This document shows, one piece after another, positions 5,698 through 8,091 of a stretch of 53,366 nt of DNA. Location of the stretch: contig PATE01000080.1 in the NCBI GenBank assembly GCA_002712305.1, forward strand, positions 5,305 through 58,670, given 5' to 3'. The notes beneath the pieces are model-generated. The model saw nothing but the letters and a program-made list of their open reading frames with translations. It searched no databases and was not told the origin of the DNA. The position numbers and the translations under genes were made by a program. Source of the DNA: Gemmatimonadota bacterium (GTDB taxonomy: Bacteria > Latescibacterota > UBA2968 > UBA8231). Each line of letters begins with the position of its first letter. The stretch's first letter is position 1.

Positions 5698-5820
5698 GTT
5701 ATTAACGGAAATGTATTTTGGAGAGATTGCCAGTTTTCATCGGTGACCCGGAGATACCGTTTGAACCATCCTTGTTTTAGACCGTGGTATTCAGGTCGAA
5801 CCTTTCCTGCTGATGAAGTG

Positions 5821-6882
5821 ATGGCCGTATTTGATCAGGACCCGCAACCACAGGTCCTCTACGACCAGACCGATTCGGCGGGAATTGAAGGCGCCTATGC
5901 AGACATCATGCGCGGTCTCTACGACAAGATGGACTCTCTCAAGCGTTCGCCCGATGACTTTCGCACGTGGACGGATGAAGACGGCTATCTGACGTTCTAC
6001 AACGCCTTGCTCGACTTCGCCGGTGACGAGACGAAGGACCGGGTTCAGGTTCTACAGCAACTTGGCGAGTTCAAATTCAGGGCGGGCTCCGGGCCCGATG
6101 AAAAGAAGAAACTGATCGAGGAGTGTTTCGCTGAAGCGACCGATCAGGAAGACCCAAGAATCGTGGCAACGTCACGGTCTCGTCGCCTGTCTCAGATCTG
6201 GTCGCCGAAGACAGATACCATCCTCGATTACATCGTCAGTCGACCGGCCCAGGCGGGGCGGGTCCTGTCAGATCGACTCAATCCGACCAACACCGAACCT
6301 CTGCAATTGGTGGGTCATCCCTTCAAGGATGTGCGCAGCACGGATCTGCAGCCGGTTGCCGATGCCAAGGTCATCGCTTTCGAGCGTGGATCTGAAATTC
6401 ATATCATCCCGGGGGTCAGCAAGACCCTTACGAACTGGGATGCGGACACGGCGTCCGTGGGCGGTGTCGAACAGGTGTCGTTGTTCGAGACATTGCTGCT
6501 GCACGAACTGGTCGAATTGGTGTCCCGTGAAGAAAACCCCGATTTACCGGCCCTCTACACGCACATGATCGCGTCGAGCTTCGAACGGTATCTCAAGGCC
6601 GACCTACTGTCGGTAGCCGTAGAGGATTTCTTTCTGGAGTGGCCGGTGCGTTCCGAGGCAGAGGAAGCGGAGCGCTACGAAGAACAGTTGAAGATGGACA
6701 TGGAGGAGGCGCGCGCCATGTTCGCCGAAGAAGATATTCCAGACACCTTCGATGACGACGACGATGACGAACTACCCGTCGACAGCGACGGCAAGGTGCC
6801 GGTGAAGAAGAAGAAGAAGATTGTGAAGAAGAAAGTCGTGAAAAAAAAGGTCGTGAAAAAGGTAAAAAAGAAGAAGGAGTAG
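5821..6882 (+). CDS. Unknown protein with acidic stretch and lysine-rich tail
   Basis: I do not recognise this family. It is about 353 residues from ATG 5821; a GTG at 5743 would add 26 atypical residues and neither start has a clear ribosome-binding site. The body looks globular and mixed alpha/beta, with a possible metal-binding HELVE near residue 230. The C-terminus is striking: a run of about six Asp and a Glu (near 320), then about 25 residues almost entirely Lys and Val arranged as repeats of KKKVV. Such tails are seen in nucleic-acid-binding proteins. A hairpin terminator follows. It converges on the BMC operon; a functional link is only possible. Confidence 0.7.
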   Translation: MAVFDQDPQPQVLYDQTDSAGIEGAYADIMRGLYDKMDSLKRSPDDFRTWTDEDGYLTFYNALLDFAGDETKDRVQVLQQLGEFKFRAGSGPDEKKKLIEECFAEATDQEDPRIVATSRSRRLSQIWSPKTDTILDYIVSRPAQAGRVLSDRLNPTNTEPLQLVGHPFKDVRSTDLQPVADAKVIAFERGSEIHIIPGVSKTLTNWDADTASVGGVEQVSLFETLLLHELVELVSREENPDLPALYTHMIASSFERYLKADLLSVAVEDFFLEWPVRSEAEEAERYEEQLKMDMEEARAMFAEEDIPDTFDDDDDDELPVDSDGKVPVKKKKKIVKKKVVKKKVVKKVKKKKE

Positions 6883-6958: not shown

Positions 6959-6981
6959 AAGGCGCCTTGGGCGCCTTTTTT
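6959..6981 (+). terminator. Rho-independent terminator of the Lys-tail gene
   Basis: An 8-bp perfect stem (AAGGCGCC / GGCGCCTT) with a 3-nt TTG loop runs into six T, about 75 bp after the stop at 6882. On the minus strand the stem is not followed by T, so it serves the plus strand. Confidence 0.8.
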
Positions 6982-6990
6982 GTGGCCGAA

Positions 6991-7335
6991 TCAGTCTGTG
7001 GTCTGGCTGCGCTTCACATCGGCATGCGCTTCTTCTGCCACCTGAAGATCACCGGCCGCCTGCCGGATCTGGTCGCACAGCCCACCCACTTCATCCACCG
7101 AGACCGACTCTCCTGCTTCGAGGCGTGTGAACGCCACCGCACCCAACTCAGCCTGGAGACGACTCAAGCGAGTCTTCGCCGCAGCCACATCGAGGCGCGC
7201 ACGTCCGACCTGGGTCAACTCTTCCGCCTTGTTCATCGCCAACTCTGCGCCGTCCTGAAGACCCCGCTTCAGGTTATCCCACAGTCGGTCTACACCGGTT
7301 TCGTGCTCGTGAGAATCGGTCGTGTCTTCAGTCAT
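6991..7335 (-). CDS. Small coiled-coil protein (unknown), third gene of rpsR-BMC operon
   Basis: A 114-residue acidic, charged protein with no signal peptide or membrane segment. After a polar His/Asp/Glu-rich N-terminus (about 1-15), two long amphipathic helices are evident: about 17-68 and about 78-108, rich in Ala, Leu, Glu and Arg, consistent with a helical hairpin or coiled coil. I know no family for it. The ATG is 2 nt after the BMC stop and has GGAAG upstream, so it is co-transcribed and probably coupled with the BMC gene. It may be an adaptor or cargo for the shell protein, which is inference from position alone. Confidence 0.75.
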   Translation of the reverse strand: MTEDTTDSHEHETGVDRLWDNLKRGLQDGAELAMNKAEELTQVGRARLDVAAAKTRLSRLQAELGAVAFTRLEAGESVSVDEVGGLCDQIRQAAGDLQVAEEAHADVKRSQTTD

Positions 7336-7337
7336 GG

Positions 7338-7844
7338 CTATTCTTCCTCCGTGCCGAGCACGCGCTGCAACTCGGCCAGCAGTTGTCCCTTGTTCGCTCT
7401 CGAAACCTCACGGCCCTGCAGTTGAACGCCCGCCGTCCGGCGCGCCAGCTGACGAAGTCGGGTAACAGACATGCCTTCCAAGTCAGCAGGGTCTGTTGGT
7501 TCGGCCAGAGGCGCTACCGCGTTCACGGACATTGCAGCGGTTGTCGGTGGATGTTCGGACGAGGCGATCGTCGCCATCGGCAGGTGGGGAGCTGGGATCA
7601 CGTGAGAACTGATGAGCTCACCGACCTGCTTGGCCGCAGCGGAACCGGCCCGAACGGCGGCCTGCACGGCGGCTACATCACCACTCAAGCGTAGTGAAAC
7701 GAGTCCGCCGCCAATGCGCTCGATGCCCATCAACTGGACATCTGCGGCTTTGGCGGCGGTATCGGCTGCTTCTAGAACGCCGACCAGACCACGGGTTTCG
7801 ATGAGTCCTAGTGCAGGTGCGCCAGAGGACGCGGACTCACCCAT
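7338..7844 (-). CDS. BMC-domain shell protein with SAP/Rho-N-like C-terminal domain
   Basis: A 168-residue protein with one bacterial microcompartment (BMC) domain at about residues 10-90. It begins ALGLIETRGLVG and contains the pore-loop region GIERIGGGLVSL and the end AAAKQVGELISSHVIP, all hallmarks of PduA/EutM/CcmK-type hexameric shell proteins. After a Pro/Ala-rich linker the last 45 residues (MSVTRLRQLARR ... KGQLLAELQRVL) resemble a SAP or Rho N-terminal helical module, which in other proteins binds nucleic acid. ATG 7844 lies 10 nt after the rpsR stop; a GTG at 7904 would overlap rpsR. No other shell or cargo gene is in the window. The BMC call is strong, the tail assignment moderate. 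Confidence 0.9.
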   Translation of the reverse strand: MGESASSGAPALGLIETRGLVGVLEAADTAAKAADVQLMGIERIGGGLVSLRLSGDVAAVQAAVRAGSAAAKQVGELISSHVIPAPHLPMATIASSEHPPTTAAMSVNAVAPLAEPTDPADLEGMSVTRLRQLARRTAGVQLQGREVSRANKGQLLAELQRVLGTEEE

Positions 7845-7854
7845 CGTGGGTCGA

Positions 7855-8067
7855 TCAGCGGGAGTCGTTGATGGTATACGGTAAGAGACCGAGGTAGCGG
7901 GCACGCTTGATCGCGCGTACGATGCGCGCCTGCTGCGTGCGCGTCGCGCCCGTTCTGCGCGCCGGTTCGATCTTACCGATCGGCGTGAGAAAGCGAGCGA
8001 GGACGTCGAGACGCTTGTAGTCGATCTCCTCGGGCTTCAGCTTCGCCGTAAACTCTTTGCGATTCAC
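7855..8067 (-). CDS. rpsR: Ribosomal protein bS18
   Basis: A protein of the small ribosomal subunit. IDYKRLDVLARFLTP, then GKIEPARRTG, then QQARIVRAIKRARYLGLLPY follow the family pattern closely. From GTG 8067 it is 70 residues, slightly shorter than usual, and no strong Shine-Dalgarno precedes that codon. An ATC codon at 8076 has CAGGAG 9 nt upstream and would give an N-terminus I/M-ARVNRKEF, more like other S18 proteins; see findings. Its usual partners rpsF and rplI are absent. Instead it is the first gene of an operon with a BMC shell protein and a small coiled-coil protein. Confidence 0.93.
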   Translation of the reverse strand: MNRKEFTAKLKPEEIDYKRLDVLARFLTPIGKIEPARRTGATRTQQARIVRAIKRARYLGLLPYTINDSR

Positions 8068-8085
8068 CCTGGCGATGACGACTGG

Positions 8086-8091
8086 CTCCTG
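8086..8091 (-). promoter_or_regulatory. Shine-Dalgarno-like site of rpsR
   Basis: Reads CAGGAG on the minus strand. It is 9 nt from an in-frame ATC (8076) and 18 nt from the first standard start codon GTG (8067), so it bears on the start choice. Confidence 0.5.

Follow-up and report, generated by a model that had tools for sequence, protein, structure and literature searches.

Why should a microcompartment (BMC) shell protein be encoded directly behind the gene for ribosomal protein S18, and what might the extra domain that it carries be doing there? The question is raised by a stretch of DNA of 53,366 nucleotides, here called the window, from a Gemmatimonadota bacterium (GTDB phylum Latescibacterota; contig PATE01000080.1). 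The features of concern, in window positions, are as follows:

6959..6977 (+): weak terminator-like hairpin plus T-run, between the operon and a convergent polylysine gene
6991..7335 (-): helical-hairpin (coiled-coil) protein, 114 aa (ORF; AF2 helices)
7338..7844 (-): BMC-H shell protein with C-terminal Rho_N/SAP-like domain, 168 aa (ORF with ATG start; Pfam BMC)
7341..7496 (-): Rho_N/SAP-like tail of that protein, residues 117-168, four helices in the model
7497..7586 (-): variable linker of the same protein, ~30 residues, net negative and with no conserved sequence
7587..7814 (-): BMC domain of the same protein, residues 11-86 (Pfam BMC)
7855..8076 (-): rpsR, ribosomal protein S18 (Pfam S18, E 6e-18), with its stop at 7855-7857

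Along the minus strand the order is rpsR, then the tailed BMC gene, and then the helical gene, with gaps of 10 nt and 2 nt respectively, the ORF coordinates here bearing out what an earlier note on this DNA had reported. The rpsR gene is the single S18 match in the whole genome; it lacks an ATG at its conserved N-terminus, and its start codon therefore is not settled. The operon region yielded no sigma-70-like promoter, and the terminator-like hairpin is weak, as two such were found versus 1.1 expected in shuffles. Convergent with the rpsR-BMC operon, and outside of it, is a gene (5743-6882) for a protein with a polylysine tail, which the earlier note had put forward as a possible partner of the BMC protein. 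That proposal is unsupported, and the candidate was rejected given its convergent orientation and the terminator-like hairpin that stands between. The polylysine protein matches no Pfam family, possesses an acidic stretch and a HELVEL motif, and recurs beside the operon, again in convergent orientation, in part of the family.

Is the BMC protein an orphan, as that note also held? Within the window there is no other BMC gene and no vertex gene. The rest of the source genome (146 contigs, 90.9% complete), when searched for these domains, yielded 13 further BMC domains along with 4 vertex (PF03319) domains. Contig C11 bears a compact metabolosome locus, where AldDH, PduL and a DHDPS-family aldolase are encoded together with numerous BMC domains and four vertex domains, while on contig C86 a BMC-H gene adjoins a class II aldolase. 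With AldDH, PduL, vertex and BMC genes thus present as a normal metabolosome on C11, the orphan reading was rejected, and the window gene is instead a satellite shell gene. The note had named, as speaking against its own reading, a metabolosome elsewhere in the genome that uses this shell protein, and it is the first half of this, i.e., the metabolosome itself, which C11 supplies. Also on C11 (G000:C11:14481-15590; L013:9940-11199, minus) is one protein of about 380-419 aa with four BMC domains, conserved beside a DHDPS-family aldolase in G054, G056, G059 and G050. To our knowledge, no more than one or two BMC domains are found in any known shell protein.

The BMC domain of the window protein is single and scores 92.2 bits versus PF00936 (E 2e-26; curated cut-off 24.5), and by family membership the protein is predicted to form hexamers. 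Motif comparison shows that its edge motifs, KAAN and PRPH, have decayed to KAAD and PAPH. The Asn of KAAN and the Arg of PRPH, which belong to the hexamer edge, have been lost from almost every tailed member in Latescibacterota, and the tailed BMC-H therefore is not a bulk facet tile but a specialised, rather than basal, BMC-H. A tree divides the BMC domains of tailed from those of plain BMC-H proteins almost completely, and that tree is compatible with a single origin of the tail (AU p 0.38, 95 columns).

The tail itself is far more constrained across the family than is the linker, with V, LR, R and GR.S as the invariant positions in aligned tails. Its 42-residue core has a net charge of about +5 in the window protein and carries a net positive charge in almost every member, the linker being net negative in most. 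Searched alone against Pfam, the window tail reached no family, though among the tails of relatives 7 of 19 matched Pfam Rho_N (PF07498; best E 5.8e-7) and 5 of 19 matched Pfam SAP (PF02037; best E 1.8e-4). A template-free AF2 model of the window tail (pLDDT 88.5) consists of four helices and matches the Rho N-terminal domain in many entries (Z 4.8-7.5; best rmsd 1.7 over 47 residues) as well as SAP domains (Tho1, Z 5.7; 1h1j, Z 3.9), where Z values below 8 may reflect merely a common arrangement and 7.5 is moderate. Foldseek with this model ranked Rho first, with weak E-values (best 1.8), and hmmsearch of the PDB with the tail returned no credible match, i.e., Rho emerged by fold only. As the Foldseek E-values are weak and Z stays below 8, the assignment rests on Pfam and structure agreeing. 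The tail, as modelled, is on this basis of the Rho_N/SAP-type fold, and the SAP/Rho-N-like tail that the earlier note had discerned is upheld as to fold, by the relatives' Pfam Rho_N matches together with the likeness of the AF2 model to Rho. Binding of nucleic acid by this tail is putative. The main RNA-binding surface of Rho is its OB fold rather than its Rho_N helical domain. With Rho_N (PF07498) and SAP (PF02037), then, the window module shares a fold plus weak-to-moderate sequence similarity, but it differs from them in being found at the C-terminus of a shell protein, and its GRxISRAN motif occurred on BMC proteins only in the scan described below.

How regularly does this protein accompany S18? 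Across the phylum, BMC matches occur in 57 of 64 genomes and full-length tailed orthologues in roughly 45. S18 was found in 22 of the 25 genomes of the window's family, and in all 22 the tailed BMC gene, or a remnant, is found directly behind it; the 3 family genomes without S18 are without the tailed gene as well. Since no family genome with S18 lacks the rpsR-BMC junction, this arrangement goes beyond chance. The intervening gap is 9-42 nt where measured, and about 145 nt in G052, and in G044 the tailed gene behind rpsR is cut by the contig end. In one locus (L110; G042:C266, ~2500-2650) the BMC domain appears to be gone from between rpsR and the helical gene, with only the last tail codons remaining, owing either to a real deletion or to an assembly artefact. 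In the sister families f2-f4 the BMC and helical genes stay paired but without rpsR, so that the synteny which the earlier note had proposed for checking is conserved in the whole family and absent from its sisters. At f3 loci, as in one genome of f4 (L057), an entire BMC operon (PduL, BMC-H, vertex genes, AldDH, class II aldolase and acetate kinase) comes before the pair, and genes for a PDZ serine protease and for an RpoD-like sigma factor come after it. Families f8 and f9 have no BMC genes and no tailed gene. In the source genome the rpsF...rplI operon, on contig C72, is without rpsR.

Sigma-factor genes recur near these loci. An RpoD-like sigma gene is found just downstream of the BMC-helical pair in sister families (L033-L046, L053-L065), in family f1 a sigma gene is a few kb from the pair, and in some genomes of genus g5 a second, diverged S18 lies behind an RpoD-like sigma factor (L113; G057:C59:13176-13328).

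The helical-hairpin protein is modelled by AF2 (pLDDT 88) as helices spanning residues 6-73 and 80-113; its N-terminal tryptophan is invariant in the alignment, and no Pfam or other family was matched. Its gene adjoins the tailed BMC gene in 32 of 38 Latescibacterota loci. In this phylum the two proteins probably work together. BLAST did not find the helical gene beside the tailed BMC gene in genera g5 and g6, nor did the searches made in f5/f10 and in other phyla.

The tailed protein is not confined to Latescibacterota. A collection of 84,980 species genomes was scanned with the tail pattern [QR]GR[EQ][IV]SRAN[RK], a narrower pattern being used as the first tail alignment was too diverse for such a scan; relatives with other motifs are missed, and as the pattern itself requires the motif, conservation of that motif among the matches is partly a matter of selection. 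Of the 32 loci confirmed, 31 are long enough to judge, and each of these encodes a BMC-H protein or, where that is masked, a tail fragment of one; the last is a contig-end fragment beside AldDH and PduL. The hosts are Ignavibacteria, Bacteroidetes-labelled MAGs, Neomarinimicrobiota, KSB1, Caldithrix, GN15, Desulforamulus and other Firmicutes. Outside of Latescibacterota a plain BMC-H gene is directly upstream of the tailed gene in nearly all cases, with exceptions in decayed loci, and in several such genomes the two BMC-H genes of this pair are, together with vertex genes located elsewhere, all that is found. In KSB1 and Caldithrix the BMC pair lies upstream of SpoVG-Prs-L25-Pth-HppA-S6-SSB-S18-L9, 7 kb from rpsR, and the rpsR link of Latescibacterota may be a remnant of an arrangement such as this one. 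In Ignavibacteria the pair instead is between RelA/SpoT-RuvX and YbbR-Tmk. Among open-access papers we found none on BMCs with SAP, Rho or rpsR.

Does the tailed protein require a shell? In a sample of 80 genomes of one Ignavibacterial family, vertex (BMC-P) proteins are missing from 22, and 13 of those 22 retain the tailed gene, which wherever it was inspected is found at RuvX-YbbR; no PduL was found in these 13. Mean BMC-domain scores are 68 bits in vertex-less versus 130 bits in vertex-bearing genomes (p 5e-6), while the tail shows little loss (65 versus 75 bits), and in most of the vertex-less genomes the adjoining plain BMC-H is diverged or gone. That the missing BMC-P are simply assembly gaps was rejected for most of the Ignavibacterial cases, as the BMC domain has diverged in step and as one vertex-less genome which keeps the tailed gene, G123, is a single 3.57-Mb contig. 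Incomplete assembly is a possible explanation in G025, G052, G053, G058 and G069, and in G069, with its BMC domain of 127.6 bits, it probably is all that is involved. In Latescibacterota, gaps alone predict 4 of ~45 genomes without BMC-P at 84-90% completeness. Nor are the vertex-less tailed genes relics, a reading which was rejected upon finding purifying selection on both tail and BMC domain: Pairwise dN/dS (NG86 only, several pairs having saturated dS) is, for unsaturated dS, 0.04-0.10 for the tail, 0.10-0.22 for the BMC domain and 0.22-0.64 for the linker. As vertex-less lineages keep the gene under selection, the tailed protein would have a shell-independent role, that is, a function outside of a shell is likely somewhere in the tailed BMC family. 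The loci L135-L146, from vertex-less Ignavibacterial genomes, contain BMC-fold genes that are diverging under purifying selection, some of them keeping a diverged plain BMC-H.

Among described shell proteins it is EutK that comes closest. A protein search of plasmid-labelled records turned up BMC-H proteins of Listeria and of Acetoanaerobium that bear this tail (tail profile E 3.6e-6 and 2.5e-6, respectively, for a database size of 20,000); another match, H1 from E. coli, was rejected as an EutM-like protein without a tail. In Acetoanaerobium the gene order is EutL, tailed BMC, AldDH (EutE) and EutM, and in Listeria the tailed gene is upstream of AldDH. EutK has been placed in the Listeria Eut operon (PMC8547011), and by gene order the tailed BMC-H of that operon is EutK. 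Listeria-type EutK thus resembles the window protein in consisting of a BMC-H domain, a linker and a C-terminal domain homologous to the window tail, though the Listeria tail has diverged, having PKSKIKYANK where the family has GREISRANK, and goes unrecognised by Pfam. The settings differ as well, with Firmicutes EutK belonging to a substrate-induced Eut operon whereas the window protein is found with rpsR and the helical-hairpin gene. Against the NCBIfam EutK equivalog (cut-off 218) the window protein scores 52.9 bits, and the Listeria protein, at 72.2, also falls below.

Enterobacterial EutK (Salmonella, E. coli) likewise has, C-terminal to BMC-H, a small helical domain that is nucleic-acid-binding-like, but that domain is PF16365 (EutK_C), which is unlike the window-family tail and which gave no match to window-family tails up to E 5. 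Homology of the tail consequently holds, as judged from sequence, for Firmicutes-type EutK only, enterobacterial EutK being comparable by analogy. Deletion of EutK in Salmonella leaves BMCs polar and static, i.e., EutK is needed for their spatial distribution, and it has been suggested to act in a ParB-like, nucleotide-binding manner (PMC12487888). As the Salmonella tail is another domain, this evidence on positioning serves as an analogue for the fold found here. By themselves, EutK and PduK were monomers in one study (PMC12058022). What is known already, then, is an EutK-type BMC-H with a nucleic-acid-binding-like tail; what is new is the Rho_N/SAP fold, the ribosomal operon and retention after shell loss.

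Two other systems invite comparison. In FRAG BMCs, which are known from candidate phyla as well as from Ignavibacteriae and Gemmatimonadetes, the shell genes are spread across as many as six loci (PMC8217296). Scattered shell genes, a BMC-P triplet elsewhere and the same host phyla are what relatives of the window gene have in common with this type, but the FRAG description makes no mention of a Rho_N/SAP tail, of ribosomal linkage or of shell-less retention (PMC8217296). The typical FRAG pattern is seen in the Ignavibacteria, Caldithrix and KSB1 relatives; in the source genome the fit is equivocal, with shell genes scattered over C11, C86 and C101 and 4 BMC-P domains on C11, but with a main locus that is compact and includes enzymes. 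Carboxysome positioning by McdAB resembles the outcome proposed here, spacing of organelles on the nucleoid, and likewise has a small coiled-coil partner, but here the tether would be in the shell itself, and no ParA-type ATPase was recognised within the inspected gene neighbourhoods of tailed BMC loci.

The reading that we favour, if with confidence slightly short of even, is that this is an EutK-like BMC-H hexamer whose Rho_N-like modules tether shells to nucleic acid, in a role that can outlive the shell. A specialised BMC-H hexamer would bear, on a flexible C-terminal linker, a module of Rho_N/SAP fold, and the resulting six basic modules per hexamer could provide a multivalent grip on nucleic acid, whether nucleoid DNA or RNA. 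In recombinant shells the termini of BMC-H face the cytosol, though native orientation is debated (PMC6109187, PMC9052549); with termini facing the cytosol, the modules would therefore be outside, where DNA and RNA are. In bacteria with a metabolosome the protein would act as an EutK-like minor shell tile, its tail tethering organelles and spreading them in the cell, with the helical-hairpin protein as a likely partner in Latescibacterota. Placement behind rpsR would make for growth-linked rather than substrate-induced supply, and the hexamer would go on serving a separate function where no shell exists.

Counting against such a nucleic-acid tether are the ability of SAP and Rho_N folds to bind proteins, the seat of Rho's main RNA-binding surface in its OB fold, and the monomeric behaviour of EutK and PduK noted above. 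Small helical tails can indeed be protein-binding modules, and the tail might then bind cargo, another shell protein or the helical-hairpin protein, making of the window protein an EutQ-like aid to shell-cargo assembly. The adjacency of the helical gene in most Latescibacterota loci agrees with this, as does a past proposal that concave-face BMC termini meet cargo (PMC6109187). We nevertheless consider it unlikely, as the fold matches Rho_N and SAP and has a basic core, as BMC-P-less genomes keep the tail with no shell to fill, and as no helical gene was found alongside in g5, g6, f5/f10 or other phyla. Very unlikely, in our judgement, is a plain minor shell tile, that is, a FRAG satellite BMC-H whose extension tunes the facet and whose proximity to rpsR is an accident of rearrangement. 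FRAG BMCs do scatter their shell genes, in the same kinds of phyla (PMC8217296), and proximity may be ancestral, given that rpsR has left the rpsF...rplI operon here and that the KSB1/Caldithrix pair is 7 kb from rpsR, but the constraint on the tail relative to the linker, the tail's retention after vertex-protein loss and the loss of the KAAN and PRPH edge motifs are not what a plain tile would lead one to expect.

Closest to the earlier note is a housekeeping oligomer that binds nucleic acid, whose chief task would be to regulate translation, transcription or the chromosome and whose link to metabolosomes would be secondary. Such an oligomer, which we regard as somewhat unlikely, would suit an operon with the only rpsR of the genome, the positions of the pair before SpoVG...L9 in KSB1/Caldithrix and between RuvX and YbbR-Tmk in Ignavibacteria, and the retention under purifying selection where vertex proteins and PduL are missing. 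BMC-P nonetheless co-occurs in most genomes, the tailed gene is within BMC operons in f3/f4 and in Firmicutes, f8 and f9 lack the tailed gene along with BMC genes, and neighbourhoods vary by phylum, so that no single housekeeping partner is conserved.

The EutK-like tether, if correct, bears on the spacing and inheritance of metabolosomes. In the literature consulted, no shell protein but EutK was found to combine a nucleic-acid-binding-like tail with a localisation phenotype (PMC12487888), and with the present tail occurring in Bacteroidota/Latescibacterota-type phyla as well as in Firmicutes, the nucleic-acid hypothesis becomes testable in more than one lineage, cultivable hosts including Listeria, Acetoanaerobium and Desulforamulus. 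More doubtful is that proteins with the BMC fold and a Rho_N-like tail form a family of nucleic-acid-binding hexamers which in several lineages are independent of microcompartments, which in Latescibacterota are co-expressed with S18, and which may serve as a docking point for BMCs on nucleoid or RNA. The dozen vertex-less lineages, if confirmed, would be instances of shell-fold proteins working without a shell.
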